Source: Pelagicoccus sp. SDUM812005 (lineage in GTDB: Bacteria > Verrucomicrobiota > Verrucomicrobiia > Opitutales > Opitutaceae). From it: DNA of 64,000 nucleotides. The DNA lies in assembly GCF_031127875.1 (NCBI RefSeq), contig NZ_JARXIA010000006.1, positions 186,001 through 250,000 on the forward strand, written 5' to 3'. The notes beneath the pieces were generated by a model. It saw only the letters and a program-made list of their open reading frames with translations. It did not search any database and was not told the DNA's origin. Numbering within the stretch: position 1 is the stretch's first letter; each line of letters opens with the position of its first letter. This document shows, in pieces, positions 36,791 to 51,585 of the stretch. A program made the translations under genes and the position numbers.

Positions 36791-38758
36791 CTACTCGGGC
36801 TTGGCGGGGGCGAGGAGCTTTTGCACGGCGGAGAGGGCGGCCTTGAGGGCGAAAGGTTTCTTGAGCAGGATGGCGTCCTCGGGGATGTCGAACTGGGAGA
36901 GCAGCTCCTCTGAGTAGCCGGTCATGACGATGACCTTCATGTCCTTGTTTTTCTTGGTGAGCCGCTCTGCGAGCTCGGAGCCGCGCATCTTGGGGAGGAT
37001 GAGGTCGGTGATGAGGAGCTTGATGTCCTCGTGCGACTCTTCGAAGAAGTCGAGGGCGTCTTCGGCGGAGTTGGTGGAGTAGACCTGGTAGTTGTAGAGT
37101 CCGAGGAGGCCGGAGATGCAGTCGCACATGGTCTCGTCGTCCTCCACGACGAGGATGGACTCGCGCTCGGTGGAGGTGAAGTTCTCGGGCAGGCCTTCGT
37201 CGACTTCTTCGTCTTCGGAAACCTTGCTGGTGACGATGGGGAGGAAGATGCGGAAGCGGGTGCCTTTGCCCTTTTCGGAGGCGACTTCGATGTGTCCGTT
37301 GACCTGCTTGACGATACCGTAGACGGTGGCGAGCCCGAGGCCGGTGCCCTTGCCTTGCTCCTTGGTGGTGAAGAAGGGTTCGAAGATGCGTTTTTGGGTT
37401 TCGGGGTCGATGCCGGTGCCGGTGTCCTGGAAGCTGAGCACGAGGTAGGGCTTGGCGTCCATGTAGTCGGGGAGGAGGACTTCGGCCTGGTCGGCTTCGC
37501 AGCTGACCATGGAAAGCTCCATTTGCCCGCCGTCGGGCATGGCGTCGCGGGCGTTGGTGGTGAAGTTGATGAGGATCTGCTCGAGGGCGGTCCGGTTGAT
37601 ATTGACGTGGATGGGGGTGTCGGAGAAGCGAAGGTTGTACTGGATGTTTTCCGGTACGAGGCGACGCAGGATCTTCTGCATGTCGCGGGTGACCTTGATG
37701 GCGTCGAGGACCTCGGGCTTGAGGTTCTTGTTGCGGCGGGAGAAGGAGAGGAGCTGCTGGGTGAGGTCGGCGGCGCGTTCGGCGGCTTTGCGGATCTCGG
37801 ATACGAACTTCTTGTTGGGGTCGGCGTCCTCGATCTTGTCGATGACGAGATCGGAGAAGGAGAGGATGACGGCGAGGATGTTGTTGAAGTCGTGGGCGAT
37901 GCCTCCGGCGAGGCGGCCGACGGCTTCCATCTTCTGGGATTGGAAGAGGTCCTGCTCGAGGCGGCGGATGTGGGAGACGTCGCGTTGGATGACGACGTAG
38001 TTGGAGACGTGGCCTTGGGGGCCGTGCACGGGGAAGGCCTTCCAGGAGATGATGAACTCGGCGCCGTCTTTCTTGTAGCCGACGGTCTCGCCGGCGGCGG
38101 GCTGGCCGGACTGGATGTCCTTCACCATTTCCTCGATGACGGAGGCGTCGGTGGCGGGGCCGTTGAGGATGGAGATGGGCTTGCCGATGACTTCGATGTC
38201 GGTGTAGCCGGTGATCTGGGTGAAGCCGTCGTTGGTGTAGAGGATGCGGGCCTCGCCGTTTTCCCAGTTGGTGTCGGTGATGAGCACGCCTTCGCCGATG
38301 CTTTTGAGGGCGGTGGCGATGAGCCGGATCTGGTTTTCGGTGGTGACGGTGCGGCTGAGGTCCTTGAAGAAGAGCAGGGCTCCGGAGAGCTCGGGGCGCT
38401 GGAGATTGGTGTTGGGCTTGAGGTGGAAGCTGACGGGCAGGACGTTGCCGTTGGGGGTGTGCAGGTTGGCTTGGGCGTGGGCAAGCTGTGGGTTGCGGTA
38501 GCGCTCGTCGGCGAGGTTGAGGGCTTGCCCGGTCTTGGGGTCGGTGGCGACGAAGACGTCGTTGATGGAGGCGCCGGCGATGAGGTCCGCGGCGATGGAG
38601 AGGGATTGCAGGGCTTGTTTGTTGGCCCTTTGGATGCGTCCGGTCCGATCGATGACGATGATGCCTTCGCTCGAGTATTCCAGGAGGGAGTCGGCGAGGT
38701 TTTGCGATCCCAGGGAATCCTCCGCAGGATTGTTTGCGGAAGGATCGGGCTGCGTCAT
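36791..38758 (-). CDS. Soluble hybrid histidine kinase (PAS-HisKA-HATPase-REC)
   Basis: 655 residues from ATG 38758 (a TTG at 38794 is also in frame). No membrane helix. Two or three PAS domains come first (SEGIIVIDRTGRIQRAN; IGEGVLITDTNWENGEARILYTNDGFTQITGY with a following PAC), then HisKA with the phospho-histidine in LAGGIAHDFNNILAVIL, an ATPase domain with FQDTGTGIDPE and GTGLGLATVYGIV, and a C-terminal receiver with VVEDDETMCD and the phospho-aspartate in LLITDLILPKM. HDFNN is characteristic of the NtrB-like hybrid group. It is 213 bases upstream of cheA on the same strand, with a hairpin between, so co-regulation is possible but not shown. Confidence 0.92.
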   Translation of the reverse strand: MTQPDPSANNPAEDSLGSQNLADSLLEYSSEGIIVIDRTGRIQRANKQALQSLSIAADLIAGASINDVFVATDPKTGQALNLADERYRNPQLAHAQANLHTPNGNVLPVSFHLKPNTNLQRPELSGALLFFKDLSRTVTTENQIRLIATALKSIGEGVLITDTNWENGEARILYTNDGFTQITGYTDIEVIGKPISILNGPATDASVIEEMVKDIQSGQPAAGETVGYKKDGAEFIISWKAFPVHGPQGHVSNYVVIQRDVSHIRRLEQDLFQSQKMEAVGRLAGGIAHDFNNILAVILSFSDLVIDKIEDADPNKKFVSEIRKAAERAADLTQQLLSFSRRNKNLKPEVLDAIKVTRDMQKILRRLVPENIQYNLRFSDTPIHVNINRTALEQILINFTTNARDAMPDGGQMELSMVSCEADQAEVLLPDYMDAKPYLVLSFQDTGTGIDPETQKRIFEPFFTTKEQGKGTGLGLATVYGIVKQVNGHIEVASEKGKGTRFRIFLPIVTSKVSEDEEVDEGLPENFTSTERESILVVEDDETMCDCISGLLGLYNYQVYSTNSAEDALDFFEESHEDIKLLITDLILPKMRGSELAERLTKKNKDMKVIVMTGYSEELLSQFDIPEDAILLKKPFALKAALSAVQKLLAPAKPE

Positions 38759-38822
38759 GGGGGTGGAGTCGTTGGTTCGGGAGGTCGTGCTCAAGGAGCG
38801 GGTACTGTTGGAAACGCCTCCG

Positions 38823-38870
38823 AAAAAAGCAACAACCCACGTTTTGGCGATTCTACCTAAACGCGGGTTG
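38823..38870 (-). terminator. Probable terminator of galE
   Basis: A 12-bp stem with one mismatch (38833-38844 with 38859-38870; CAACCC/GGGTTG outer arms) and a 14-base loop; on the minus strand it is followed after four bases by six T. It lies about 100 bases after the galE stop. Confidence 0.6.
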
Positions 38871-38971
38871 GCGGGACTTGGCTGCGTAGGCAGCGGACTG
38901 GGTGTAGTTGTAGGCTGACTACGCCAGTAGGAATTGCGAGTGGCCGCTCGGAGGGGGCGCCTAGTCGTCGC

Positions 38972-39964
38972 TTAGGCGTCTTCGTAGCCGCGCGGGTGGG
39001 ATTGGTGCCAGGCCCAAGCGGTTTCGATGATGCTGCGTATGGTGCCGTACTGGGGAGTCCAGCCGAGTTCCGATTTCGCCTTGGCGCTGTCGGCGTAGGC
39101 GGAGGGCACGTCGCCGGCTCGCTTGGGGGCCAGGTCGTAGGGGACGGGGCGCCCGGAGACCTCCTCGACGGTCTTGATGATTTCGAGCACGCTGGCGGGG
39201 GTGCCGGTGCCGAGGTTGTAGGTGAGGAGCCTGCCCTTCTCCTCGAGAAGCGGGAAGGCGGCGATGTGGGCGCGGGAGAGGTCGTCCACGTGCACGTAGT
39301 CGCGCAGGCAGGTCCCGTCGGGGGTGGGGTAGTCGTTTCCGAAGACCATCATCTTTTCGCGCTGGCCGAGGGCCACTTGGATGGCGATGGGGATGAGGTG
39401 GGTTTCGGGGGAGTGGTCTTCGCCGATGATGCCGCCTTCCGCGGCGCCGGAGGCGTTGAAGTAGCGGAAGATGGCGGCGGACATGCCGTAGGCTTTGGTG
39501 CAGTAGTCGAGGATGACTTCCACGTCGGCCTTGGTCTGGCCGTAGGCGCTGATGGGGCGCAGGGGCATGGTTTCGTTGAAGGGCGGTTCCGCTTCTTCGC
39601 CGAGCACGGTGCAGGAGGAGGAGAAGACGAACTTGTTGACGCCCGCCTCGCGCATGGACTTGAGGAGGGATATGGTCTTGGCGACGTTGTTCTCGTAGTG
39701 CTTGAGGGGGTCCTGCATGGACTCGCCGACCTCGATGAAGGCGGCGAAGTGCATGACGATGTCGATGTCCTCGGACTTGAGGATTTCGATGACCTTGGGG
39801 GAGTCGGCGAGGTCGACCTCGTGGAAGCTCACGCCCGCGGGGATGGATTCCTTGTGCCCCTTGACGAGGTTATCGAGGACGATGGGGGTATGCCCAGCGA
39901 CCTGCAGTTGACGCACGCAATGGCTTCCAATGTAGCCTGCACCTCCTACGACGAGTACGTTCAT
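38972..39964 (-). CDS. galE: UDP-glucose 4-epimerase
   Basis: 330 residues. It interconverts UDP-glucose and UDP-galactose with bound NAD. The Rossmann motif is VVGGAGYIGSHCVRQL, the catalytic SxnYxxxK set is FSSSCTVLG and SAYGQTKADVEVIL, and YFNASGA and RDYVHVDDLS are family marks. It borders the glycan locus, and UDP-galactose made here is the substrate of the UDP-galactopyranose mutase at the other end of the window. Codon use is GC-rich like the housekeeping part. ATG start at 39964. Confidence 0.96.
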   Translation of the reverse strand: MNVLVVGGAGYIGSHCVRQLQVAGHTPIVLDNLVKGHKESIPAGVSFHEVDLADSPKVIEILKSEDIDIVMHFAAFIEVGESMQDPLKHYENNVAKTISLLKSMREAGVNKFVFSSSCTVLGEEAEPPFNETMPLRPISAYGQTKADVEVILDYCTKAYGMSAAIFRYFNASGAAEGGIIGEDHSPETHLIPIAIQVALGQREKMMVFGNDYPTPDGTCLRDYVHVDDLSRAHIAAFPLLEEKGRLLTYNLGTGTPASVLEIIKTVEEVSGRPVPYDLAPKRAGDVPSAYADSAKAKSELGWTPQYGTIRSIIETAWAWHQSHPRGYEDA

Positions 39965-40108
39965 GAGGCGAGACGATGGGGAGTCGTGGCTCTAGATCGA
40001 GCGTAAACCTTTGGCTGACCTACTTTTGCAGGGGTGTGTAGGTTTTGGGGCGTGGGGGGAGCAGGAGGGCTCGGTGCCAAGGGATTCACTATCGTTGGTT
40101 ACGTGGAA

Positions 40109-40137
40109 TTGACTCTTCATCGAGCATCTCCATTTAG
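40109..40137 (+). promoter_or_regulatory. Candidate promoter of the plus-strand glycan operon
   Basis: TTGACT at 40109-40114 and ATTTAG at 40132-40137, 17 bases apart, just before the ATG at 40147. The -10 match is weak. The spacer back to galE (39965-40146) has no gene. Confidence 0.4.
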
Positions 40138-40146
40138 GTCACGTAC

Positions 40147-40887
40147 ATGCGAAAACGCTTTGATAATCAGACGATTGTAGTCACGGGCGCTACCCGAGGA
40201 ATAGGGAAAGCGATCGCGGCGCAGCTTTTGAGGGAGGGTGCGACCGTGATAGGGACGGGTACTCGTCAAAGCAACGAGCGGGCAGAAGGGATTGGGGAGC
40301 TGGAGGGAGTGCACTGGCACGATGTCGATTTGTCCTCCGTTCAGGAGGCTGAGTCGTTTTGCTCCTTTTTGGCGAAGCTTGAGCGTATCGACGCTTGCAT
40401 AAACAACGCTGGGATAAACCGCATTAAAGTCCTAGATGACATTACTGCGGCCGACTATGACGTGGTTCATTCGGTTAACCAAAGGGCGCCGTTTCTGATT
40501 TGTCAGGCCGTTGCTGGGAGGATGCGAGCGTGTGGTGGGGGACGAATTCTCAACGTTGCATCCATTTGGAGTGAGGTGAGTAAGGCGCAACGCAGTCTTT
40601 ACTCGGCGAGTAAGACCGCTTTGGTGGGCATGACCCGAGCTTTGTCCGCGGAATTGGGGAGTGATGGGATTCTCATCAATTCGCTTTCCCCGGGCTTCGT
40701 TCTGACGGACCTAACTCGGGAGTCTCTTTCTGAAGAGCAGATGTGTGAGTTGGCTGATCAGGTGCCCTTGAAGCGTTTGGCGACACCAGAGGAAATTGCG
40801 GAGGTGGCCTGTTTTTTGGTGAGTGATTCGAATCGGTATTTAACCGGTCAAAATATTATCGCGGATGGAGGGTTCACGATCGTATGA
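40147..40887 (+). CDS. SDR-family oxidoreductase (FabG-like)
   Basis: 246 residues, classical short-chain dehydrogenase. NAD(P) site VVTGATRGIGKAIA, NNAGI, catalytic YSASKTA with the serine in NVASIWS, and SPGFVLTDLT. Such enzymes in glycan loci oxidise or reduce hydroxy or keto groups of a sugar; here the substrate is presumably made by the neighbouring AroB-like cyclase. Its stop overlaps the next ATG (ATGA), so it is coupled with that gene. From here on, GC is visibly lower than in the flank. Confidence 0.92.
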   Translation: MRKRFDNQTIVVTGATRGIGKAIAAQLLREGATVIGTGTRQSNERAEGIGELEGVHWHDVDLSSVQEAESFCSFLAKLERIDACINNAGINRIKVLDDITAADYDVVHSVNQRAPFLICQAVAGRMRACGGGRILNVASIWSEVSKAQRSLYSASKTALVGMTRALSAELGSDGILINSLSPGFVLTDLTRESLSEEQMCELADQVPLKRLATPEEIAEVACFLVSDSNRYLTGQNIIADGGFTIV

Positions 40888-41969
40888 ATGCAGCTGCGGG
40901 TGAATCCAACTTTTCGGTACGATCTTACTTGGGGGTGTACGAAGTACAGTTTGTGGATGACTTCGTTGCTAGCTTGCTTTCGCATTTGAAGGAAGGCGAT
41001 GTCTTGTTAGTCGACCAGAACGTGGAGCGAATCTACAAGAATAGGATAGGAAGTTCATTCGACTCTCACAGGGTAATCCGTTTGGATCCAAAGGAAGAAT
41101 TAAAAAGCTATGAGGGCGTAATGCCGATCATTTCACAGCTGATCGAAACTGGATTTAAGAAAAATAATCGATTGGTGGCGGTCGGAGGTGGAATAACTCA
41201 AGATGTTACGGCTTTCATCTCCTCCATCATGTACAGAGGAGTAGACTGGGTCTTTGTTCCAACCAACCTCTTGTCTCAATGCGATAGCTGTATCGGGAGC
41301 AAAACATCTATCAATTTTGGAGACTATAAAAACCAGCTCGGAGGATTTTATCCTCCGAGACTGATCCTGCAAGATCCATCATTTCGGAAATCTTTGGATG
41401 CGAGAGAGATCGCTTCGGGGGTAGGTGAGATGGCGCACTATTTTCTAATAGATGGGGAGGATTCTTTTGCAGCGTTAGAGGCTGGAGTTGTCGAAGCTTT
41501 AAAGGGAGGGCAAGTCGTTACGGAATTTGTGCGGCGTAGTCTCGAAATAAAACGGGATATGATCGAGGTCGATGAGTTCGACAAGGGGCCTCGCAACGTC
41601 TTCAATTACGGCCACTCTTTCGGGCACGCAATTGAGGGGTACACACGGTATGCGATTCCTCATGGGATCGCGGTATCGTTTGGGATGGATATTGCGAATT
41701 CGGTCTCCGTGGCACTTGGGCTGATGGATGCTAAAGTGCAGGAAAGGGTTTTTTCGGTCTTAAGCCAAATATGGCGTGGCGTGGACTTTCCTACGATCGA
41801 TCTGAATCGGTATGTAGAAAGTTTAAGAAAAGATAAAAAGAACATTGGTAGTAACGTGCGAGTTGTTTTGTCTCGAGGGATTGGAGACATGTTTCTCGAG
41901 CGAATTGAAATCGATAGTTTGTTCATGGATACGCTGGAAAAACGATTTTCTGTGTACCGGGAAAGTTGA
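40884..41969 (+). CDS. AroB-like sugar-phosphate cyclase family protein
   Basis: 361 residues of the dehydroquinate-synthase superfamily, which also holds sedoheptulose-7-phosphate cyclases of cyclitol pathways. NAD site VAVGGGITQDVTAF, RGVDWVFVPTNLLSQCDSCIG, then FNYGHSFGHAIEG and PHGIAV with the metal-binding histidines. Compared from memory with E. coli AroB, the Arg and Asn before the NYGHSFGH motif are kept, but the active-site lysine of AEVIKYG is histidine (GEMAHYF). So it is probably not the shikimate enzyme; the product may be a cyclitol or a related carbocycle. Overlaps the SDR gene by four bases. Confidence 0.85.
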   Translation: MNAAAGESNFSVRSYLGVYEVQFVDDFVASLLSHLKEGDVLLVDQNVERIYKNRIGSSFDSHRVIRLDPKEELKSYEGVMPIISQLIETGFKKNNRLVAVGGGITQDVTAFISSIMYRGVDWVFVPTNLLSQCDSCIGSKTSINFGDYKNQLGGFYPPRLILQDPSFRKSLDAREIASGVGEMAHYFLIDGEDSFAALEAGVVEALKGGQVVTEFVRRSLEIKRDMIEVDEFDKGPRNVFNYGHSFGHAIEGYTRYAIPHGIAVSFGMDIANSVSVALGLMDAKVQERVFSVLSQIWRGVDFPTIDLNRYVESLRKDKKNIGSNVRVVLSRGIGDMFLERIEIDSLFMDTLEKRFSVYRES

Positions 41970-41975
41970 AAAAGT

Positions 41976-42704
41976 ATGGATATCCAGAAGTTAGTTGTGC
42001 ACATTCCTGCTCGGGCCGGCAGCAAGCGATTACGTTCGAAGAATCTCCGTCTGCTCCGAGGGAAGCCGATGATCTCCTATGCCATCGATTGCGCTTTGGC
42101 GAGTGGTCTTGCGGACGAGATCTATGTTAATACGGACTCTTCAGAACTTTCAGAGCTGGCTATCGAAAGCGGAGTAAAAGTTTATAAACGCGACCCGAGC
42201 CTTGCTGCTGATGATTCAACTGGAGACGATTTTACTGCAGATATCATTGAATCTCTACAATTGGATACTCTGATGATGATCAGCCCTGTTTGCCCTCTGG
42301 TAACGGTCGAGGATGTGACGAGGGCGATTGAATGTTATCGCAATGATTCTGCTGCGGATACGCTTATAACATGCACGGAGACTCAGATGCAGGCTGCGAT
42401 GGAGGGAACGTTTGTGAACATCAAGCCCGGAGCTCCTCTCGCTCCAACGCAGGATAATCCGAAAATTCAGATTTGTAATTGGGCGGTTACTATTTGGAAT
42501 GGGCCCACCTTTTTGAGGAATTACCGCAAGTTTAAAGGCGGGTATTGTGGAACGCGAAGGATTCTTCTTCCGATCGATCCGCTTCACTCTGTTAAGGTCA
42601 GCAATGAGGCGGACTTCAGGCTTGTTGAATCGTTGTTGAGGGTTTCCGAAGACTCGGGAGGGGAAGGCGAAGTGCGTTATTGGGGAGATTCTTCTAATGC
42701 CTAA
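41976..42704 (+). CDS. CMP-ulosonate-type cytidylyltransferase
   Basis: 242 residues, NeuA/PseF/KdsB family, which activates 8- or 9-carbon keto-acids with CTP. The CTP-binding start IPARAGSKRLRSKNLRLLRGKP is intact, with the YVNTDSSEL strand, SPVCPLVT and the closing DPLHSVKVSNEADFRLVESLL typical of acylneuraminate cytidylyltransferases. It lies six bases after the AroB-like gene. No NeuB- or KdsA-like PEP condensing gene is in the operon, so the natural substrate is open. Confidence 0.9.
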   Translation: MDIQKLVVHIPARAGSKRLRSKNLRLLRGKPMISYAIDCALASGLADEIYVNTDSSELSELAIESGVKVYKRDPSLAADDSTGDDFTADIIESLQLDTLMMISPVCPLVTVEDVTRAIECYRNDSAADTLITCTETQMQAAMEGTFVNIKPGAPLAPTQDNPKIQICNWAVTIWNGPTFLRNYRKFKGGYCGTRRILLPIDPLHSVKVSNEADFRLVESLLRVSEDSGGEGEVRYWGDSSNA

Positions 42705-42766
42705 ACGTACTTGCGGAATGCCAGAAGAACGCGTTTCTTTGGATTAGCCGCCGAAGCAAGCCCTGT

Positions 42767-43354
42767 ATGTCGAATACCCAATACTACCAATCCTTTTGTA
42801 ACACGCTGCGTCGTTCACTTGATGCTGTCGTGGTAAATGCTCGAGATGGACAAATGGTCGAAACTGAAGAAGCCTTCGAAATCGTTTGTCGTAAGGCTTT
42901 AGCGATTCGGGATGCCGGTCGAAATATGTATCTTTGTGGAAATGGGGCAAGTGCGGCATTTTCGAATCATATGGCTTTGGATTGGACGAAGGCGGGCGGG
43001 GTGCCGACGTTTTCCTTCAGCGACTCGGCCTTGTTGACTGCGATGGGTAACGATCTTGGCTACGAAAACGCGTTTAGCGCTCCCTTGAGTTGGTATGCAA
43101 AAAGTGGAGACCTGCTCGTGACTATTAGCTCTTCAGGGAATTCTCCTAATATCATCAAGACAATTGAGGTCGCTAGAAGTAAGGGAATGGAAGTCGTTAC
43201 GTTTTCGGGGATGGGAGAAGGGAACAAGTCGCGTTCGATGGGGGATCTGAACTTCTACGTTCCATCTGAAACCTATGGAATCGCCGAATCAGCCCACCAG
43301 GTTCTGCTGCACATCTGGTTGGATAAGTTTATTGGGATCGAGTACGGTTCGTAG
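42767..43354 (+). CDS. GmhA-like SIS sugar-phosphate isomerase
   Basis: 195 residues with one SIS domain. MYLCGNGASAAFSNHMALDWTK and LVTISSSGNSPNII hold the phosphosugar site; LGYENAFSAPLSWYAKSGD fits GmhA, the sedoheptulose-7-phosphate isomerase of heptose pathways, rather than the KdsD type, which carries CBS domains. An isomerase acting on a seven-carbon sugar beside a sedoheptulose-cyclase-like protein is a suggestive pair (inference). It stands 62 bases after the cytidylyltransferase, in the same operon. Confidence 0.88.
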   Translation: MSNTQYYQSFCNTLRRSLDAVVVNARDGQMVETEEAFEIVCRKALAIRDAGRNMYLCGNGASAAFSNHMALDWTKAGGVPTFSFSDSALLTAMGNDLGYENAFSAPLSWYAKSGDLLVTISSSGNSPNIIKTIEVARSKGMEVVTFSGMGEGNKSRSMGDLNFYVPSETYGIAESAHQVLLHIWLDKFIGIEYGS

Positions 43355-43368
43355 CTAGAAAAGGAATT

Positions 43369-44175
43369 ATGAAGATCTGGAAAAACACGGGAACGCTTGA
43401 CGCGTTTGTGCCTGAACTATCGCAGCAGTTCGTTGATCCGGCGGATGCCGAGGTTGCTGTTCTAGGGAGCAGGCCGGTCGATCTGGATTCCATGCCGCGT
43501 TTGAGGGGGATTTTCAAGTGCGGGGTAGGCACTGACAACGTACCTTTTGAAGAGTGTGCGCGGCGAGGCATCAAGGTTGGCCTTCCTTCCGAAGGAACTG
43601 CGAGCGTTATCTTTGAGGAGACTGCATCGTTTGCTGTCTCTCTCATTTTCCGTATGCTGTATTCCAATGTCGGAGACTTGGATGCTTGGCGGAAAGAGAC
43701 TCGTGTAGCAGCCCAGAAAAAGAATGTTTTGGTAGTCGGCTTGGGAAACATAGGAAGCCGAGTTGTCAAAAAGCTGGAACCGACTGTAAACGTGATTGGT
43801 TACGATTTGGCGATGTCGCCGCTTGATGTACTCGAAGAGTTAATCCCTAAGGCCGATGTCGTTACTTTGCATATACCCCTGGAGGAAGGAACTCGTGGTT
43901 TTTGGGGAACGAAGCATCTGGGTTTGATGAAAAGGGGGGCTGCCTTGGTCAATACGGCTCGTGGGCCTGTGGTAGATGAGGACGCCTTGTATGAGGCATT
44001 GGGGCAGCATCGAATTCGAGCGGCGTTCGATGTGTTCTGGAAAGAGCCATATGAAGGGAAATTGAGAGAAATGTATCCAGACCCCTTTTACATGACTCCG
44101 CACGTCGCAAGTACATGCGTGGACTTTCTCGAAGGCTTAGCTGAGGATTACCGAGCTTTTGTGAAGCAATTCTAA
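43369..44175 (+). CDS. D-2-hydroxyacid dehydrogenase-like protein
   Basis: 268 residues, shorter than the 310-330 usual for the family, mainly at the N-terminal substrate-binding domain. The catalytic domain shows LRGIFKCGVGTDNV, NAD site VVGLGNIGSRVVKKL, NTARGPVVDEDAL with the substrate-binding arginine, and TPHVAS with the catalytic histidine; the acidic partner lies around FDVFWKEPY. It could interconvert a 2-hydroxy and 2-keto acid in the sugar pathway of this operon. Position 15 bases after the SIS gene. Confidence 0.85.
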   Translation: MKIWKNTGTLDAFVPELSQQFVDPADAEVAVLGSRPVDLDSMPRLRGIFKCGVGTDNVPFEECARRGIKVGLPSEGTASVIFEETASFAVSLIFRMLYSNVGDLDAWRKETRVAAQKKNVLVVGLGNIGSRVVKKLEPTVNVIGYDLAMSPLDVLEELIPKADVVTLHIPLEEGTRGFWGTKHLGLMKRGAALVNTARGPVVDEDALYEALGQHRIRAAFDVFWKEPYEGKLREMYPDPFYMTPHVASTCVDFLEGLAEDYRAFVKQF

Positions 44176-44181
44176 CAAATT

Positions 44182-45168
44182 ATGCTCAAGGTAGGAATTA
44201 TAGGATACGGTAAGATGGGGCGAATTCGCCACAAGGCTCTTGTAGGTGACGGTAGGGCTGAGGTGGTCGCGATCTTTGACCCCGAGCCGATTGATGACGC
44301 GCTGTGTGCTGTGGTCGATAGCGAGAATGAGATCTTGGAGAATCCGGAGATTGATGCAATTTTCGTCTGTGCTCCCAATTTTCGAATACCGGAATTAGCT
44401 AAGCGCGGCCTAAGGTCGGGAAAGCATGTCTTCGCGGAAAAACCACCGGGGTTCACTGCTGCCGATGTTGAAGGAGTTCGACTGGTAGAGGCGGAATCGG
44501 AGGGGTTGAAGCTCATGTATGGTTTTAACCATCGCCACCACGCGAGTATCAAGAAAATGAAGTCACTCATCGAATCAGGGGAACTAGGTAAGATTCTTTG
44601 GATGCGTGGCCGTTATGGAAAGGAAGTAGATGACTCTTATTTCGAGACGTGGAGGGCGGACCCCAAGTTAGCAGGAGGTGGAATCATGTTGGACCAAGGC
44701 ATTCACATGCTAGATCTTTTCATGTATTTTTGTGGGGGATTTGATGTCGTGCATGCTTTGGTTTCAAATCTATATTGGAAGATTGATGGAGGAGAGGATA
44801 ATGTTTTTGCAATCTTCAAGAATTCGGAGACAGGAGTGTGCGCATCACTCCATTCGACGATGACTCAATGGCGCTATTTGTTTTCATTGGAGATCTTTTT
44901 GGAGGGTGGGGCTTTGATACTGAACGGGCTAAAAACTTCATCAGGCGTTTATGGCGATGAGGATCTGGCGATTAAGCGTAATGATTCTGATGCCCATGGA
45001 GGGTTCGCCCACGAGGAGCATATCGTATATCACACTGATGTTTCCTGGGCATCGGAGATAGGGCATTTTATTGATAGCATAGAAAAGCGTCAGCCTGTGC
45101 TTCAGGGGACGTCACTGGACGCTCTGAACCTCATGAAGATTATGGATCGGATTTACCAAGGAAGCTGA
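44182..45168 (+). CDS. Gfo/Idh/MocA-family oxidoreductase
   Basis: 328 residues. NAD site VGIIGYGKMGRIRHKAL, the strand-turn EKPPGFTAADVE (the common EKP catalytic segment), and a C-terminal alpha/beta domain with GGGIMLDQGIHMLDLF. This family oxidises or reduces ring carbons of nucleotide sugars and inositols, which fits a cyclitol-type product. It follows the hydroxyacid dehydrogenase by six bases and shares its operon. The substrate is not predictable. Confidence 0.9.
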   Translation: MLKVGIIGYGKMGRIRHKALVGDGRAEVVAIFDPEPIDDALCAVVDSENEILENPEIDAIFVCAPNFRIPELAKRGLRSGKHVFAEKPPGFTAADVEGVRLVEAESEGLKLMYGFNHRHHASIKKMKSLIESGELGKILWMRGRYGKEVDDSYFETWRADPKLAGGGIMLDQGIHMLDLFMYFCGGFDVVHALVSNLYWKIDGGEDNVFAIFKNSETGVCASLHSTMTQWRYLFSLEIFLEGGALILNGLKTSSGVYGDEDLAIKRNDSDAHGGFAHEEHIVYHTDVSWASEIGHFIDSIEKRQPVLQGTSLDALNLMKIMDRIYQGS

Positions 45169-45192
45169 GTATTTAACACACGATTATCGAAA

Positions 45193-46146
45193 ATGAAGCA
45201 GTCGTACTTTGAGTTGCTGAAAGAGAACGAGATAGCCTTGAACTTGTCTTTGGTCGAGGAGTCGATGCTCGGGAAGAACCTCTTTATCTGGGGGCTTGAG
45301 CCTATTGCGTTTGTTCTAGCCGACTACGTGCGGGAAAAATACGGAATGAAGGTGGAGGCGTTTGTCGATTGGTCTGGTGAAAGAGTTGGGGGCCAGGAAG
45401 GAAAGACGCCCATTGTAAGTCCAGCAGAACTCAGAAAATCGAAGGTTGAGAGTGATTGCTACGTTCTAATTGGAGTCTATGCTTGGCGGAATGTGGGTTG
45501 TGTGTTGCTTAATATGGGCTTCTCGCATTTAGCGGAGTTTGCGGTGCCGTTCTGCAATTTCAGAAGCGATGTTCCGTTTTATGAAGGAGAAAAATTCGGG
45601 AATCTCCTGTTTGTAGGCCAGCGAACTAGCAATTTTGCAACTTTGAAGTCTGGTCTCGTTCCGTATCGGCTAGATGGATCGCCAATTCGGAAAATCGGCG
45701 CGTTTTGCTCTGTTGCTATGGGTGCTACGATCGTGCAGAACCATCCGACATACGCTTCTACAAGTAGTTACTTTTTCAATACTGATGATCGAGTTTTCGA
45801 GGAGCATTTTGGTGCATGCAATCCTGTGACGGAGGTTGGGAATGATGTATGGCTCGGACGGAATGCGGTCATTATGCCGGGAGTTCGGATCGGGAACGGA
45901 GCAATTATTGGTTCTTCATCAGTCGTGACGAAAGATGTTCCGGATTACGCGATCGTCATGGGGAATCCAGGGCAAATCGTTAGTTTTCGATTTAGTCCTG
46001 AAGAGATTTTATTGCTTAACGAGACACAATGGTGGAATTGGCATTTGAGAAAAATAGACAAAAATAGGGAACTATTCCAATCGGATGATGTGACCCCCTT
46101 TTTCGATATGCTGAGAGAGGCACTGAATCGTGAAGAGTGCTACTAG
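45193..46146 (+). CDS. Hexapeptide-repeat acetyltransferase with N-terminal Rossmann-like domain
   Basis: 317 residues. Residues 25-115 form a nucleotide-binding-like domain as in PglD (NLFIWGLEPIAFVLADYV, SDCYVLIGVY). The C-terminal part is a left-handed beta-helix O- or N-acetyltransferase of the VatD/CatB type: IVQNHPTYAST carries the catalytic histidine, followed by VGNDVWLGRNAVIMPGVRIGNGAIIGSSSVV and the late WWNW. It probably acylates the sugar made in this operon. Stop overlaps closely with the next gene (three bases between). Confidence 0.88.
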   Translation: MKQSYFELLKENEIALNLSLVEESMLGKNLFIWGLEPIAFVLADYVREKYGMKVEAFVDWSGERVGGQEGKTPIVSPAELRKSKVESDCYVLIGVYAWRNVGCVLLNMGFSHLAEFAVPFCNFRSDVPFYEGEKFGNLLFVGQRTSNFATLKSGLVPYRLDGSPIRKIGAFCSVAMGATIVQNHPTYASTSSYFFNTDDRVFEEHFGACNPVTEVGNDVWLGRNAVIMPGVRIGNGAIIGSSSVVTKDVPDYAIVMGNPGQIVSFRFSPEEILLLNETQWWNWHLRKIDKNRELFQSDDVTPFFDMLREALNREECY

Positions 46147-46149
46147 GCG

Positions 46150-47745
46150 ATGCTAACAGGTTCTAAATCGAGAAGTTGTCTTGTCCTATGCCATATCGCT
46201 AGTTGGTCGAGCATGCATGCTCTCGCTCTTGCCGATCGATTTCGTAGTGAAGGTGTAGAAGTCGAATTCATGGTGGCGTCAGCCGATCGAACCGATGCTG
46301 GAAGGGATTTGGCAGAGTTTGGCGCCTTAGTGGAGGGCTCAGGATTTGGTCGAGTTGTATCTACTCAAATTTACAATTCCAGCAGTGAACTGTACGGGTG
46401 GTTGATGGACTACGTGAACTCTCAGTTGGGTAGTGATAGAGATGTTGAGCGCTTCTACCTCCCTTGTAATGAGTTTAATAATTTTCATTCACCCAGCGTT
46501 GATGGAATAGTAGCTCTCGCACGTATTTTAGAGTTAAAAGGTGTTGAGCTGCACGCTTTTGATCATGGGCCAGGTGATTGGTTGTCTTCTTATGACGAGA
46601 CACACTCGGACAGTCTCTCTTACGCTAAGATGATCACATTTTCCACAGTTCAAGTGTTTGACCCGAAGGGGTGGCTTGGGGATGGCCGTTGTACCGTTCT
46701 TGATTCGATCCATTGCTTGCATGCGATTCGAACTGTCGGAGAATTCGTTAAGGAAAGGGACTCACGTTTTTTTGATTCGCTCAGTGTGGAATCGGATTCG
46801 ATTTTTATCATCGGAGGTACTTATGACTATTCGATCGGGAGAAGTTGCTTTGAAGAATATATACGAATAATCAGGCAAGCAAAGAAGAACGGGATAACCG
46901 TCTATTTTAAGCCTCACAAACACTATTATTTAGAAGGTGATCAAGGTGTTATAGCGGAACTCAAGAGGGAAGGAGCTATTCTCGTCGATGCTGTTTCCTG
47001 TGGAGCTGAAGTATTGATCGAATTGCTGAAGCCTATTGGGGTCGTTGGCGTTTGCTCAAGTGCCTTGCGACATAGCTGGCATCATCTTGGGGTTCCCGCC
47101 TTTACCGTTGTGACCGCAAGCCTCATGCAATCGTTGTTGGAGGGGGAGAGGGCGAATGCTGGATTAGCGATGAGTCTGAAGAGTGGGCGCTACCGATTCT
47201 TAGAGATTATGATGAATGTCTGTAGTTTGCCTCATTGGGATGAACTGGATCTATCTTTGTGGACGAGAAGTCGAAAAACTGAATACGAAGAGGTACTTTC
47301 AATAGTGAAAGAGCGGTCTGCTTTGTATCGGACTCTTCTGCCGATGAGGGAAATGGTTTTTTCTAATTATTTGTCGAGATTGAGCCGGATTAAAGGAAAC
47401 TGTGACGATTACTATCTTTACGCATTGGACTTGTGCTCAGAGAATAATTGCAGATTCGCTGTTTACGGAACAGGCGAGGGTGGGAGGGATGTGTTGAGAC
47501 TCGCGAAAAATCTCGGAATGTCACCTGTCTATATGATCGATAGTAAGGCCAATGAGCCCTTTTCCGAAGTGTTTGGAGTTAAAGTGAGACCATTGGATGC
47601 GGTGTCCGATGAGGAGTTGGGCAAGTTGGATGCTATTGTCGTCTCAAGCGTGACCTATTACAAGGAAATCGTCAGTAAGCTAAGACCTGTATGTGAATCC
47701 GCAGCCATACGAATCATTCATTTCGGTGATCTGGTTCGCAGCTAA
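46150..47745 (+). CDS. GT-B protein with sialyltransferase-like motifs and a C-terminal Rossmann domain
   Basis: 531 residues, not matching a family I can name. Three features recall bacterial CMP-sialic acid transferases (GT52/GT80/polysialyl type): an acidic-Gly block DHGPGDW, a basic-His block YFKPHKHYY, and a Ser-Ser block VGVCSSALRHSW. The last 100 residues (CRFAVYGTGEGGRDVLRLAKNLG, then IDSKANEPF) are a separate Rossmann-like domain resembling PglD/CoA-binding modules. As the last gene of an operon with a CMP-sugar synthetase, transfer of that CMP-sugar is the simplest role (inference). Cytoplasmic, no membrane helix. Confidence 0.6.
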   Translation: MLTGSKSRSCLVLCHIASWSSMHALALADRFRSEGVEVEFMVASADRTDAGRDLAEFGALVEGSGFGRVVSTQIYNSSSELYGWLMDYVNSQLGSDRDVERFYLPCNEFNNFHSPSVDGIVALARILELKGVELHAFDHGPGDWLSSYDETHSDSLSYAKMITFSTVQVFDPKGWLGDGRCTVLDSIHCLHAIRTVGEFVKERDSRFFDSLSVESDSIFIIGGTYDYSIGRSCFEEYIRIIRQAKKNGITVYFKPHKHYYLEGDQGVIAELKREGAILVDAVSCGAEVLIELLKPIGVVGVCSSALRHSWHHLGVPAFTVVTASLMQSLLEGERANAGLAMSLKSGRYRFLEIMMNVCSLPHWDELDLSLWTRSRKTEYEEVLSIVKERSALYRTLLPMREMVFSNYLSRLSRIKGNCDDYYLYALDLCSENNCRFAVYGTGEGGRDVLRLAKNLGMSPVYMIDSKANEPFSEVFGVKVRPLDAVSDEELGKLDAIVVSSVTYYKEIVSKLRPVCESAAIRIIHFGDLVRS

Positions 47746-47751: not shown

Positions 47752-48366
47752 CTAGGTTTGGATCGCGATGGCAATGGCATCAGATTCTGTATGACTGATT
47801 GATATATGAAAGCCGGGGAAAGATGGCTTGCCGTTGGAGTCAGCGGAAATTGAAATCTGATTGAATGGAATGTCTCGAAAGGAATTATTCGCTTTTGCGA
47901 TTGCTTCTTTTGCGGCGAATCGTCCAGCGAATGACTCTATTGGGTTAGGTTGGAGGATGCAGTGAGCTATTTCTTCTGGAGAGAAATTTTCTTTGTAGAA
48001 GGTTGCGCTACGGTAATCTTCCTGTCTCTCGAATTGGGATACTTTTTCAATGTCGATACCGACGGAACGAATTGTAGATGGGAAGCTGGATGAGGCCTTT
48101 GTCGTCTCGACTGCTCTTGTTTTTAGGCGTGGTTTAAGAGGGCCTGACTCGCTTCCGAGGCATTCTAAAAGTTGGCCGTAGGTTTCGATGTTTCGTTTTG
48201 ATCCGTTGAGGGGGAATCCTGCATCGGATAGTTTTGAATACATCCGATGGAGGATGATTGATCCAGCAACGGCTTTTTTGCCGACTGGGGTATTTGAGTT
48301 TATCGAGGAAGGTGGGGTCTTTAGAAAACTCGCCACGATCTCTCTGATTTTTTCGTCGTCTTCCAT
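47752..48366 (-). CDS. AcpS-type phosphopantetheinyl transferase with ACP-like N-terminus
   Basis: 204 residues from ATG 48366, 19 bases after the E2 stop (an in-frame start at 48438 would overlap E2). The C-terminal half is an AcpS fold: VGIDIEKVSQF with the Mg ligand, FAGRFAAKEAIAKA, and HISISHTESDAIAIA. The first 75 residues (DEKIREIVASFLKTPPSSI, SIILHRMYSKL, ETYGQLLECL) look like an acyl-carrier helix bundle, but the phosphopantetheine DSL serine is missing. It closes a 13-gene operon, and its stop is 6 bp from the convergent GT-B gene. A dedicated PPTase implies a carrier protein, not visible here. Confidence 0.8.
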   Translation of the reverse strand: MEDDEKIREIVASFLKTPPSSINSNTPVGKKAVAGSIILHRMYSKLSDAGFPLNGSKRNIETYGQLLECLGSESGPLKPRLKTRAVETTKASSSFPSTIRSVGIDIEKVSQFERQEDYRSATFYKENFSPEEIAHCILQPNPIESFAGRFAAKEAIAKANNSFRDIPFNQISISADSNGKPSFPGFHISISHTESDAIAIAIQT

Positions 48367-48385
48367 GTTAATTGAAGTTATATAT

Positions 48386-49663
48386 TCACCACCCTCCGTT
48401 GGCACAAACAAAGCACATGTAACGCTCTCGACCATCATGCTGAGTTACCTTTATTAGGCCGCGTCCACCAAGCTGATTGTCTTCGTTGAGCGTTTTCATG
48501 CAAATGCTGCAAGTTGGCGTGGTTTCTTGCTTATGGGCGAGAGAAGGGTTTGCGTAGCTTTCTAGCCTGTTTTTTAGCTCAACTAGAAAGGTACTCGCTT
48601 CTTTGCCATTTGAGACTCGGTGATCGAAGGCGAGGGATAGTATGATCGATGAGCCATTCGTTTCTGATCGCGCAATGCCGAGGATTGCAGATTGGTTTTT
48701 GTTTACAAGCGGGGTGAAGTGGCTGATGCCGGTGGCGGTCAGGTCGCTTATGGTGAAAGTGCTTCCTGTGAGGTCGTTGCCGTCGAGCTTTCGATCGAGG
48801 TACTTGTTTGCGAGTTGAAGGATCGACTCTTCTAACTGTCGTAGTGATTTTTTTGGCGTGTTTTGAATTTTGGCAACTTTAAGTCCGTCGTCTATGTCTA
48901 TTGCAATTCCGATATCGATAGAGTTGTAGTACACAATGTGATCGTTTATAAAGTAGGCATTCAGGTTTGGAAATTGCTTCAATAGTCGGGACGATTCGTA
49001 TACGGCGATTGGTAGAATGGAATCGGGAAGGTGGGCTAGGGAGAGGCTCAGGGCTTCGTAGAGGCCGTGCGTTTGTAGGTCTGTAAAGACTATGCTGGTC
49101 AGGCCTGCGGATTGTACGGAGCTCAAGTAACGAATCTCATTGGCTTTGCTAGGGCTGAGCTTTTCTAGGCGCGTTCCTGGCAATGGAGTTTGGATTGCCT
49201 CCGCGGACGTTTGGAGAGGGGGTGAGGAATTTGGGTGGGTATGTCCTAGCTTTGCGTGCACATCATGAATCGAGACGAGATCTCGGTCCTGGAAGTCGGT
49301 TTTGGATAGGCCATACTTTTTAATGAGTTTCAAGGCACTGCTGGAGAAAATTGTTTCTGAAGCTTCGTCAGTACTACGGTCTTGCTCCTCAAGTTGAAGC
49401 CGGTTTGTTTCGAAGTCTTCTTTTGTTTCGTGAACTCGAGCGATGCGGTGTCCAATTGGGACTTCTTGGTCGAGTTTAACCGTGTATTCGATTACACCTG
49501 CCGTCGGCGATTCGATTGGTGTGACAGCCTTCGATCCTTCGAAGTCTAGAATAATATCTCCGGTTTCGATTTCGGCGCCTTGATCGAAGTATAGGTGTAC
49601 GATCGCAACGCTCTGGTCGTTGACGTTTTCGGCTGGGATGAGGATTTCGATTGGAGGTTTCAT
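48386..49663 (-). CDS. 2-oxoacid dehydrogenase E2 subunit with added C-terminal four-cysteine module
   Basis: 425 residues. A lipoyl domain (1-80) with the lipoyl lysine K45 in DFEGSKAVTPI, a peripheral E3-binding domain (about 105-140, LKLIKKYGLSKTDF), and the CoA-acyltransferase domain (165-380). The catalytic DHRxxDG motif reads AFDHRVSNG, so the aspartate is asparagine. After it, residues 383-425 carry CSIC and CFVC (C385, C388, C417, C420), a zinc-ribbon-like addition unknown to me in E2. No E3 (lipoamide dehydrogenase) gene is present. Overlaps E1 by four bases; presumably a special acyl-transfer complex. Confidence 0.82.
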   Translation of the reverse strand: MKPPIEILIPAENVNDQSVAIVHLYFDQGAEIETGDIILDFEGSKAVTPIESPTAGVIEYTVKLDQEVPIGHRIARVHETKEDFETNRLQLEEQDRSTDEASETIFSSSALKLIKKYGLSKTDFQDRDLVSIHDVHAKLGHTHPNSSPPLQTSAEAIQTPLPGTRLEKLSPSKANEIRYLSSVQSAGLTSIVFTDLQTHGLYEALSLSLAHLPDSILPIAVYESSRLLKQFPNLNAYFINDHIVYYNSIDIGIAIDIDDGLKVAKIQNTPKKSLRQLEESILQLANKYLDRKLDGNDLTGSTFTISDLTATGISHFTPLVNKNQSAILGIARSETNGSSIILSLAFDHRVSNGKEASTFLVELKNRLESYANPSLAHKQETTPTCSICMKTLNEDNQLGGRGLIKVTQHDGRERYMCFVCANGGW

Positions 49664-51585
49664 CCTATGAGTTCCGCTGCGGCTTCAATGATTGATTTGA
49701 CGTTTGGTAGCGTTTGTTCTTCGAGTCTTTTAGGTGATGGAATTGGGACGGGTAATGAAGCGACACGTTGGCAATGGAGGGGGATTGATGCACGTTCGCA
49801 AGCTGAGCTCAGGATTTCGCTGCCGATTCCTGAAAAGGCGCTTCCTTCTTCGATGACGAGAAGTCTTCCTGTTTGTTCGGCTGACTCTAGAATTTCCTCA
49901 AGATCAAGTGGGTGTAGCCTAGTGACAATCAGCAATTCAGCCTTCATGTCTAGTTTATCGAAAATCGGGCGTATGCCGTCGATCGCGAACTCGCTAGAGC
50001 CACCATACGTAACGATGGTTAGAGTTGGTTTTGATCTGACTGGTGCGATTCGTATTGTTGGGTATTTCTTTTGGTTTCTATGTATGCGATAGTTCGTTAT
50101 CTTCTTCGGTGTTAGTCTCTTTCCGTAATCCGTTTTATTCTCAATAACGACTACTGGATGTTTTTCTTCGTGTACAGAATTGTAGAGAAGGGAAGGGTCG
50201 AGAAGCGAGTTGAGGGCGACCACTGTCACGTTATCGATTCCTACGAGGAACTTCTCGAGGCTTTGGGAGTGAGTAGGGCCGTAGCCGCGCCGACCCCCCA
50301 TTGGTGTCCGTATCACGATGGGACAGGTGGTTTGTTTATTGTATATGTGGTAATATTTGGAGGCGTGATTCACTATTTGGTCGAGGGCCAATAGCATGAA
50401 GTCTCCGAACATGATTTCCACGTAGGGCTTAAATCCTGATAGGGCTAGACCATTTCCGATGCCGGTGATTGCAGCTTCGCTGATTGGTGTCGAAAAGGTG
50501 CGGTCAGGGAAATCGATTGACAGGTCCTTGGCTACTTTGAAGGCCCCTCCATATGGGGAGAGTACATCTTCGCCGATGAAGACTGTCTTTGGGTCTTTTC
50601 GCATTGTCTCTTTGAAGAAAGCGTTAAGTCTCGAAACTTGACGTTCATCGACGGTTTCGAGGGGTCTCCATTCTTGTTTTACTTCCGATTCTTCGGGAGG
50701 CTCATAATATTCGTCGATGCTAAGTTCGTTTGCGCGTTCCGCTTCCTCAACCGCTCGATTGATACGAATTTTTATAGATTGGTCGAGAGCGATGAAATCT
50801 TCGCTGCTTTCTTTTTCTAAAATGTGAATCGGATCTCTGGCACGGTAAGCTTCGATTTCTATGGGATCACGGTCATCGTCACCCTTGGAATGAGCCATTA
50901 ATCGATACGTATCCACGAGATGGAATACGGGCTTGCTGTTTGTTCGAACGAAATCTATCGATTTCTTCGCATTCCTGATTATTGCATCAGGTGTCCAAGT
51001 CTCGCTGTGGAAAGTTTCTATTTCGAAGGCCTCTGGGCGCTTCAGTATGTTGCCGGCCAAATTGACGGATTGGTGAGTCGATTGAGCGTATAAGTTATTC
51101 TCGCAAACGATGAGAAGGGGAAGCTCCCATTTTGAGGCGATGTTCATTGTCTCGTACAGCACACCTTCGCCGAGCGTACCGTCACCAATGAAGAGTGTCG
51201 TGATTGCGTTGTTCCGCTTGAGTTTATGAGCTAAGGCCAGTCCAGCTGCATTCGGCGCTATTCCGCCTTGGATACCGTTTGAGTAGAAGTTACCCTTCTG
51301 CAGGTGCTGGCTGCTGCCGATGCCGCCACAGGTTCCGGTGCTTTTTCCCATCAGCTCAGCAATTAGTCCCGCATAGTCTTTCGTGAAGGCGATGTAGTGG
51401 CCGTGGCAACGATGATTTGAAAATATGGAGTCGCTACTCTCTAGTTGGCCAGCGAAGGCGATTGCGGATAGTTCTTGGCCAACGCTGGTATGTACGGTGC
51501 CATTGAGGCGTCCCTTAGAGAAGAGTTCGAGGAATTGCTCTTCGACTCTGCGGATTAGGAGGGCTTGTTCTAACCAAGGAGGCAT
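49660..51585 (-). CDS. Fused E1 alpha-beta 2-oxoacid dehydrogenase (TPP enzyme)
   Basis: 641 residues. Residues 1-310 are the E1-alpha-like part with the TPP motif FIGDGTLGEGVLYETMNIAS and a conserved HRCHGHYIA block; 320-640 are the E1-beta part with GEDVLSPYGGAFKVAKDL, ISEAAITGIGNGLALSG and a C-terminal transketolase-type domain. Fused E1 chains are common in secondary metabolism and branched-chain type complexes. It decarboxylates a 2-keto acid onto the lipoyl group of the coupled E2. It lies in a glycan operon, not with lpd or sucB, so the acyl unit probably goes onto a sugar or carrier (inference). Confidence 0.85.
   Translation of the reverse strand: MPPWLEQALLIRRVEEQFLELFSKGRLNGTVHTSVGQELSAIAFAGQLESSDSIFSNHRCHGHYIAFTKDYAGLIAELMGKSTGTCGGIGSSQHLQKGNFYSNGIQGGIAPNAAGLALAHKLKRNNAITTLFIGDGTLGEGVLYETMNIASKWELPLLIVCENNLYAQSTHQSVNLAGNILKRPEAFEIETFHSETWTPDAIIRNAKKSIDFVRTNSKPVFHLVDTYRLMAHSKGDDDRDPIEIEAYRARDPIHILEKESSEDFIALDQSIKIRINRAVEEAERANELSIDEYYEPPEESEVKQEWRPLETVDERQVSRLNAFFKETMRKDPKTVFIGEDVLSPYGGAFKVAKDLSIDFPDRTFSTPISEAAITGIGNGLALSGFKPYVEIMFGDFMLLALDQIVNHASKYYHIYNKQTTCPIVIRTPMGGRRGYGPTHSQSLEKFLVGIDNVTVVALNSLLDPSLLYNSVHEEKHPVVVIENKTDYGKRLTPKKITNYRIHRNQKKYPTIRIAPVRSKPTLTIVTYGGSSEFAIDGIRPIFDKLDMKAELLIVTRLHPLDLEEILESAEQTGRLLVIEEGSAFSGIGSEILSSACERASIPLHCQRVASLPVPIPSPKRLEEQTLPNVKSIIEAAAELIG

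Follow-up and report, generated by a model that had tools for sequence, protein, structure and literature searches.

A conserved gene set in Pelagicoccus sp. SDUM812005 pairing an AroB-like enzyme with a CMP-ulosonate-type cytidylyltransferase: a candidate surface-sugar pathway without a NeuB/KdsA-type synthase

In Pelagicoccus sp. SDUM812005, a stretch of 64,000 nucleotides (contig NZ_JARXIA010000006.1, positions 186,001 to 250,000; hereafter the window) contains at positions 40147-47745 eight open reading frames (ORFs), among them genes for an AroB-like enzyme and a cytidylyltransferase of the cytidine monophosphate (CMP)-ulosonate type, which represent a real, conserved pathway. The best overall explanation, with a probability of roughly 45%, is a surface-glycan cassette producing a CMP-2-ulosonate-type sugar with no NeuB/KdsA-type synthase in the set. 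The broader statement, that a conserved cassette makes a CMP-activated surface sugar of the ulosonate type, is very probably correct.

CMP-sugars such as sialic, legionaminic, and pseudaminic acids and 3-deoxy-D-manno-octulosonate (Kdo) shape cell surfaces, phage receptors, and host recognition. To our knowledge, the described CMP-sugar pathways join phosphoenolpyruvate (PEP) to a sugar, and the lack of a PEP-joining step in a set conserved across several phyla and on contigs classed as viral would point to a missed class of surface sugars. No description of the gene set was found in the literature searched, most subscription papers being outside its reach, and TIGR04425, the family of the AroB-like enzyme, is not mentioned among the literature matches listed.

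Organization of the operon

All eight ORFs lie on the + strand with intergenic gaps of -4, 6, 62, 14, 6, 24, and 3 bases in order, an operon-like spacing that agrees with the tight packing described in the initial annotation, which was made from the DNA letters alone. Pfam and NCBIfam provide family-level backing for seven of the eight gene labels, including the AroB-like cyclase, the cytidylyltransferase, the three oxidoreductases, and the acetyltransferase already named there. The genes are as follows.

P0001, 40147..40887, + strand: short-chain dehydrogenase/reductase (SDR)-family oxidoreductase (PF13561, 176.4 bits)
P0002, 40884..41969, + strand: AroB-like enzyme, TIGR04425 (406.8 bits; Pfam DHQ_synthase)
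P0003, 41976..42704, + strand: CMP-ulosonate-type cytidylyltransferase (PF02348, CTP_transf_3, 72.1 bits)
P0004, 42767..43354, + strand: SIS-domain phosphosugar isomerase-like protein (PF13580, SIS_2, 49.6 bits)
P0005, 43369..44175, + strand: 2-hydroxyacid dehydrogenase (PF02826, 2-Hacid_dh_C, 117.4 bits)
P0006, 44182..45168, + strand: Gfo/Idh/MocA sugar dehydrogenase (PF22725, 80.1 bits; PF01408, 59.6 bits)
P0007, 45193..46146, + strand: hexapeptide-repeat acetyltransferase (PF00132, 42.3 bits)
P0008, 46150..47745, + strand: putative glycosyltransferase (PF07388, 22.9 bits, below the gathering score of 23.3)

As previously annotated, no NeuB, KdsA, or PseI condensing enzyme is encoded among these eight ORFs; KdsA was not searched for elsewhere in the genome. 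The GC content falls at the start of the operon from 0.631 (38001-40000) to 0.489 (40001-42000), and a divergent galE-like gene, labeled by reading, immediately precedes it. The scans for promoters (8 found, 9.5 expected) and terminators (7 found, 8.1 expected) performed at chance.

Several labels can be narrowed. P0004, introduced as a GmhA-like isomerase, belongs to that superfamily and is the sole match to the gmhA model (TIGR00441) in the genome at E ≤ 0.001, while its 83.5 bits lie far below the cut-off of 209.45, so that the superfamily label holds and the identification as GmhA does not. For P0005, the best NCBIfam match is phosphoglycerate dehydrogenase (PGDH; 119.3 bits, below its cut-off of 454), and the best PDB match is the phosphoglycerate dehydrogenase 1wwk (90.5 bits). 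P0006 is IolG-like by NCBIfam and shares about 37-67% identity with its best counterparts beside the cyclase in related loci of the H-type class defined below. P0007, CatB-like at 121.3 bits (cut-off 350), is a tailoring gene outside the conserved core. P0008, formerly described as a GT-B protein, retains as the basis of that label the sub-threshold PF07388 match, and it is possibly the user of the CMP-sugar.

Conservation of the gene set in cellular and viral loci

Relatives were collected by scanning genome contigs with two exact peptide patterns (82 relatives, 80 kept) and by scanning viral contigs twice, which yielded 19 loci, including two from contigs already represented; five further loci, one a repeat, and the window were added. 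Genes were labeled with hidden Markov models built on gene clusters of these same loci and applied to every six-frame ORF no farther than 9.5 kb from the cyclase, and the resulting counts are per locus, uncorrected for relatedness. Locus L014 lies on the same contig as L094, with equal length and gene order, and was excluded from the 85 and 18 distinct loci given below, while it was included in the tree, residue, and gene-content counts; L009 (same match figures as L008) was omitted, as were L104 and L105, which share their contigs with L008 and L009, and L100 and L102, with identical cyclases, were both counted. Viral loci are IMG/VR contigs classed as viral.

The relatives are classified by the residue at position 197 of 3-dehydroquinate synthase (DHQS), with His in H-type loci (window included) and Lys in K-type loci; because the classes are defined by it, residue 197 is no evidence by itself. 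The 85 distinct cellular loci comprise 55 H-type and 12 K-type loci without a thiamine diphosphate (ThDP) enzyme and 18 loci with one, referred to as TPP-type. The H-type loci include members of Bacteroidota, Verrucomicrobia, Pseudomonadota, spirochaetes, a selenomonad, and a cloacimonad. The counterparts of P0001, P0002, and P0003 in L019 are 51-64% identical to them, and cultured carriers of the cluster include Mucilaginibacter phenanthrenivorans (L032), Dyadobacter luticola (L026), and Alteromonas lipotrueae (L027).

Among the 55 H-type cellular loci, SDR is found in 54, SIS and Gfo/Idh in 49 each, and 2-hydroxyacid dehydrogenase in 47. All four occur together in 45 of the 55, and in 33 of the 37 loci whose flanks extend 7 kb or more in each direction (long-flanked loci). 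In the 18 TPP-type loci, SIS, 2-hydroxyacid dehydrogenase, and CMP-synthetase are all absent and Gfo/Idh occurs once; the gene set therefore goes beyond chance, since four partners accompany the cyclase in 45/55 H-type loci and are nearly lacking in TPP-type loci of the same cyclase family. The SDR gene adjoins the AroB-like gene in 53/55 H-type cellular, 16/18 TPP-type, and 15/16 viral loci, while SIS, Gfo/Idh, 2-hydroxyacid dehydrogenase, and CMP-synthetase surround this pair in varying order. The eight-gene order that had been suggested as a searchable unit is thus not what is conserved; the conserved unit is the SDR-AroB-like pair, and the acetyltransferase and glycosyltransferase stand outside the recurring set. 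The 12 K-type loci contain Gfo/Idh in 9, 2-hydroxyacid dehydrogenase in 9, KdsB-type synthetase in 6, SIS in 3, and NeuA-type synthetase in 2.

Other frequent H-type partners are YhcH (28/55), HpcH-B (28/55), a PF04199 protein (22/55), and a PF01973/DUF115 protein (22/55). One YhcH protein was tested and exceeds the YhcH family cut-off (74.3 against 45.5), and it falls under that of N-acetylneuraminate anomerase (67.2 against 160). The frequency of HpcH-B, which also occurs in 21 of the 37 long-flanked loci, and the finding that the one protein tested is nearest to the HpaI, GarL, and RhmA aldolases would suit a pathway in which an HpcH/HpaI-type pyruvate aldolase is the condensing enzyme, joining pyruvate to an aldehyde supplied by SIS, the AroB-like enzyme, and SDR, with the remaining loci, the window among them, having borrowed or lost it. 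This explanation is improbable, as HpcH-B was not found in 27/55 H-type loci (16 of the 37 just mentioned) or in any of the 15 viral loci without a ThDP enzyme, and no HpcH/HpaI match in the Pelagicoccus genome exceeds the cut-off (best match 22.5 against 25).

In the same 15 viral loci, SIS-related proteins are present in 14, NeuA in 13, class III aminotransferase in 11, GT29-like protein in 11, and DUF115 protein in 10; these families were assigned from one representative each, and the DUF115 and GT29-like proteins tested both exceed the gathering score. DUF115 proteins presumably include the Maf pseudaminate/legionaminate transferases. A short cassette of NeuA, SDR, AroB-like, and SIS genes, often with the class III aminotransferase, was observed in IMG/VR loci L008, L099-L103, and L106-L114.

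CMP activation

P0003 is well above the PF02348 gathering score (72.1 against 22.6 bits), and its structural model, with a predicted local distance difference test (pLDDT) of 90.8, is closest in fold to CMP-NeuAc synthetase (Z 26.6) and CMP-Kdn synthetase (Z 26.3), followed by CMP-pseudaminate synthetase (Z 23.7), KdsB (21.7), and IspD, GlmU, and TarI (about 19-21). A CMP-synthetase accompanies the cyclase in 48/55 H-type loci, and in 35 of the 37 long-flanked ones. It is NeuA-type only in 36 loci and KdsB-type only in 12; both kinds together occur in none, and seven loci have neither. The one KdsB-type representative tested exceeds the curated kdsB equivalog cut-off (180.4 against 155.2). CMP activation is credible because the NeuA and KdsB types fill one slot and are never together in H-type cells, because the P0003 model is nearest to CMP-sialate and CMP-Kdn synthetases, and because the partners include YhcH-family, GT29-like, and DUF115 proteins. 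The exchange of synthetases, the fold, and these sialyltransferase-type partners favor the unusual CMP-activated, ulosonate-like product that the initial annotation had proposed.

The genome contains a single NeuB-family gene, on another contig (C63:223077-223796), and an ordinary nonulosonate pathway could be envisaged in which this enzyme supplies P0003, with later modification of the product by way of the AroB-like and other genes. The best NCBIfam match of P0003 is indeed PseF (TIGR03584, 84.6 bits), and no clear PseF is found among the four PF02348 matches of the genome. That score is far under the cut-off of 205.7, however, the NeuB-family gene (L122) sits with PseC/PseG-like and FliD/FliS-like flagellar genes, labeled mostly by reading, and a NeuB-like gene lies near just 4/55 H-type cellular loci, which makes such a pathway a poor prospect. 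The assignment of P0003 as the PseF of a flagellar Pse locus was rejected on the same comparison with the cut-off, and no CTP_transf_3 match was found on contig C63.

Two further observations concern this protein family. Some NeuA homologs carry a C-terminal cupin domain (L017:7519-8673 and L107:8184-9320 as tested by Pfam and, judging by protein length, twelve others). Just past the window, at L004:2558-3133 (G000:C85:252558-253133), a second short CTP_transf_3 protein of 191 aa (71.3 bits) is encoded next to a DUF115-like gene.

The AroB-like enzyme

P0002 scores above the curated TIGR04425 cut-off (406.8 against 400 bits) and below that of aroB (260.3 against 305). A separate AroB is encoded on contig C53 of the genome (scoring 363.9 bits against the same aroB cut-off), and a third cyclase on contig C42. 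In a FastTree phylogeny of 134 sequences rooted with ValA, all 101 relatives of P0002 fall in a single clade (support 0.96) that contains none of the 24 AroBs, and the placement of the cyclase inside true DHQS, which the initial annotation had named as a refuting outcome, is not observed; in the same tree, the AroB grouping is poorly supported (0.039) and the H-type sequences do not form a clade. These relatives are called TIGR04425-like by their place in the tree, few having been scored against the TIGR04425 model itself, and in six genomes with close matches the model gave four above its cut-off and two (L012 and L013) below. P0002 as a redundant AroB was therefore rejected, given its separate clade, its score under the aroB cut-off, and the AroB on C53.

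The alignment was used to compare 13 DHQS residues, at positions that we take to follow the numbering of Aspergillus nidulans DHQS. P0002 keeps 12 of them, including K250, R264, N268, H275, and K356, and replaces K197 by His, which is residue 185 of P0002. Position 197 is Lys in 24/24 AroBs, while the relatives have His in 69 and Lys in 30, two being set apart. The remaining 12 residues are retained throughout the 69 H-type and 30 K-type sequences, apart from one Q for N268. Changes relative to AroB that are fixed in the TIGR04425-like sequences include G to Q106 (101/101) and A to G181 (100/101). The AlphaFold2 model of P0002 (pLDDT 91.3) matches carbaphosphonate-bound DHQS best (Z 41.0), followed by DOIS (38.8), ValA (38.3), and DDGS (37.4). 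P0002 thus shares with AroB its fold, metal ligands, and most substrate residues, and differs from it in the His at 197, the score, the clade, and the fixed changes.

The initial annotation suggested, from enzymes that act on sedoheptulose 7-phosphate (S7P), that a C7 carbocycle or a modified keto-acid might be built and CMP-activated. On an S7P route, SIS and the AroB-like enzyme would make a C7 cyclitol of the valiolone type that is then oxidized to an acid and CMP-activated. The SIS family does contain GmhA, P0006 is IolG-like, and the DHQS-fold enzymes EEVS, EVS, and DDGS use S7P (PMC5133447, PMC4426668). The S7P cyclases ValA and DDGS, together with EboD, share superfamily and fold with P0002, and a published 14-residue fingerprint for S7P cyclases is mentioned in the latter report (PMC4426668). 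The substrate-contact positions point elsewhere: ValA, the only proven S7P cyclase compared, has M, D, and P at 250, 268, and 275, where P0002 has the K, N, and H of DHQS. Six further cyclases of the phylum and the one on C42, seven in all, also depart from P0002, with H, A/S/V, D, and E at positions 250, 264, 268, and 356. P0004 is far under the gmhA cut-off, and on chemical grounds a saturated carbocycle lacks the anomeric center on which a CMP-ulosonate synthetase acts. The C7-carbocycle route is accordingly unlikely. If K250 and R264 hold the carboxylate of 3-deoxy-D-arabino-heptulosonate 7-phosphate (DAHP), which we take to be their role in DHQS, a carboxylated DAHP-like ulosonate phosphate would be a likelier substrate than S7P.

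Regarding the other cyclases, a Streptomyces sequence whose function is unproven (L123) departs from DHQS only at 264 and 356 and keeps 250, 268, and 275. The C42 cyclase (L003/L006) and L149-L154, which share the H, A/S/V, D, and E pattern, are possibly EboD-like. The ebo operon was rejected as a parallel, since the UbiA-like and TatD-like partners of EboD (PMC5133447) are absent from the operon partners here.

Close TIGR04425 matches were rare in two sampled searches, one of 57 near genomes (two with a match at E ≤ 1e-95) and one of 387 genomes of the phylum (five at E ≤ 1e-85), this genome included in both cases. P0002-like records number 15 among INPHARED phages, all at no more than 34.3% identity, and 115 among plasmids, with at most 36.0% identity among the 30 listed.

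A sister class with ThDP enzymes and the case against a ring

In the 18 distinct TPP-type cellular loci, the SDR and the cyclase are accompanied by an acetolactate-synthase-like ThDP enzyme, with HpcH-A in 14 loci, a NeuB-like gene in 3, and neither in 1 (L096); RfbF is found in 8. The one ThDP enzyme tested matches PDB entries 8rph (403.5 bits) and then 5ahk (268.3 bits), which we take to be JanthE and PpYerE, both YerE-like. These loci are likely a donor pathway for branched sugars. YerE-like enzymes couple 2-keto acids to cytidine diphosphate (CDP)-4-keto-3,6-dideoxyglucose, and ErwE favors longer, hydroxylated 2-keto acids (PMC12247030). The TPP-type loci (L015, L016, L018, L079-L086, L088-L092, L094, and L096) are often near GtrB/GtrA-like genes, labeled by reading.

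Both ThDP-dependent decarboxylative transfer and a CMP-ulosonate synthetase require a C2 ketone, which the aldol closure of a DHQS-type reaction consumes. Because the two classes share this need, an open ulosonate would be a simpler common product of the SDR-cyclase pair than a ring. A retrosynthetic consideration of caryophyllose, a C12 sugar, leads in the same direction: disconnection would give a 3,6-dideoxy-4-ketohexose and a C7 acid, 3,7-dideoxy-hept-2-ulosonate, minus CO2, and DAHP that has lost its phosphate and had its C6 ketone reduced would be this same 3,7-dideoxy-hept-2-ulosonate, as expected of the SDR-cyclase pair.

A ring-forming alternative retains the acid. The AroB-like enzyme would cyclize a DAHP-like acid to a ring resembling dehydroquinate, SDR would give a quinate-like acid, and the tertiary alcohol next to the carboxylate would be CMP-activated as a carba-ulosonate for pseudo-glycosyl transfer. 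The almost complete DHQS active site and the carbaphosphonate-bound DHQS as the top structural match (Z 41.0) fit this proposal, and quinate presumably mimics the C2 geometry of an ulosonic acid. Against these points, the CMP ester of a saturated tertiary alcohol would be a poor glycosyl donor, the YerE-like ThDP enzymes of TPP-type loci require a 2-keto acid, and the YhcH-family genes (28/55) suggest an anomeric center, and the carba-ulosonate is on balance doubtful.

Proposed pathway

From the genes present and how far they are conserved, together with family membership, residue comparisons, and the NeuA/KdsB exchange, all established by computation, a route to an open ulosonate can be inferred, with regard to all substrates, all products, and the order of steps. 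It would begin with the SIS protein turning a ketose phosphate into an aldose phosphate, whose C1 would be oxidized by Gfo/Idh to an aldonate, the PF04199 "cyclase" of other loci being a possible lactonase. The PGDH-like 2-hydroxyacid dehydrogenase would then oxidize C2 to give a DAHP-like 2-keto-aldonate phosphate; 3-phosphoglycerate and 4-phosphoerythronate dehydrogenases, members of the P0005 family, oxidize C2 of phosphoaldonates. The TIGR04425 enzyme, as an NAD-dependent phospholyase, would perform oxidation, phosphate elimination, and re-reduction on the DAHP-like ulosonate 7-phosphate and release an open 7-deoxy-6-ketone instead of a carbocycle, after which SDR would reduce the 6-ketone to a 7-deoxy-hept-2-ulosonate. 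The NeuA-type enzyme would convert this into a CMP-sugar, from which the glycosyltransferase, sialyltransferase-like only below threshold, would transfer the sugar, with the acetyltransferase decorating it.

A 7-deoxy-heptulosonate is a tentative candidate for the product. The complete scheme, a non-condensing CMP-ulosonate route that combines double oxidation, a non-cyclizing phospholyase, and a 7-deoxy-hept-2-ulosonate, with a sister class feeding YerE-like enzymes, is more speculative still. If it were correct, it would provide a testable reaction for TIGR04425, a case of DHQS chemistry used without keeping the ring, a source of 2-keto acid donors for YerE-like branched-sugar enzymes, and an explanation of why sugars such as caryophyllose carry a long branch. 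Bradyrhizose was rejected as a product, the word being absent among the literature matches listed.

Several observations weigh against this interpretation. P0003 reads K-V-S (residues 207-209, window 42594-42602) at the C-terminal D-I-D motif of NeuA-type enzymes, which we take to be metal-binding; the K-[VI]-S form recurs in NeuA-type proteins of L019, L025, L027, L044, L058, L060, and L063, and the remaining NeuA-type proteins aligned have D-[IV]-D or a near form. The 2-hydroxyacid dehydrogenase and Gfo/Idh genes are adjacent in only 28 of the 46 H-type loci holding both, and their presence in 9/12 K-type loci each means that residue 197 is not cleanly sorted with gene content. Both are lacking in 14/15 viral loci, so that the two oxidations would not be universal. 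YhcH is found in 0/12 K-type and 0/15 viral loci, HpcH-B is unplaced in the scheme, and the role of the PF04199 protein is only guessed. Moreover, the closing aldol of DHQS is thought to need little enzyme help, with scant evidence for a role of DHQS in the last two steps (PMC7144000); given this little-assisted aldol and a near-intact DHQS site, with all 13 residues in K-type sequences, a carbocycle is the default expectation.

Relationship to known systems

P0002 belongs by score to TIGR04425, which NCBIfam names P_lya_rel_AroB, "AroB-related putative sugar phosphate phospholyase (cyclizing)". Classed as a hypothetical equivalog, this model has no named substrate; it is here tied to a CMP-sugar gene set, and its "cyclizing" element is called into question. 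With the CMP-sialate, CMP-pseudaminate, and CMP-Kdo pathways, the set has in common a NeuA- or KdsB-type synthetase, YhcH in many loci, and sialyltransferase-type partners, whereas it lacks a NeuB/PseI/KdsA-type synthase and has AroB-like, Gfo/Idh, 2-hydroxyacid dehydrogenase, and SIS proteins instead. The YerE-like pathways, such as those of yersiniose, erwiniose, and caryophyllose, resemble the TPP-type sister class, which pairs SDR and AroB-like genes with a YerE-like enzyme and, in 8/18 loci, RfbF; the operon in the window differs in having a CMP-synthetase and no ThDP enzyme.

The adjacent convergent cluster

Immediately downstream, on the - strand at 47752-59613, a convergent cluster contains the CDP-glucose genes RfbF (448 bits), RfbG (434 bits), and RfbH (617 bits), together with a GNAT-DegT fusion, a split transketolase, a fused E1 alpha-beta dehydrogenase, an E2-like acyltransferase, and a phosphopantetheinyl transferase, with a glycosyltransferase, identified by reading, amid these genes. 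This cluster looks like a pathway for a branched or acylated CDP-sugar with two ThDP systems.

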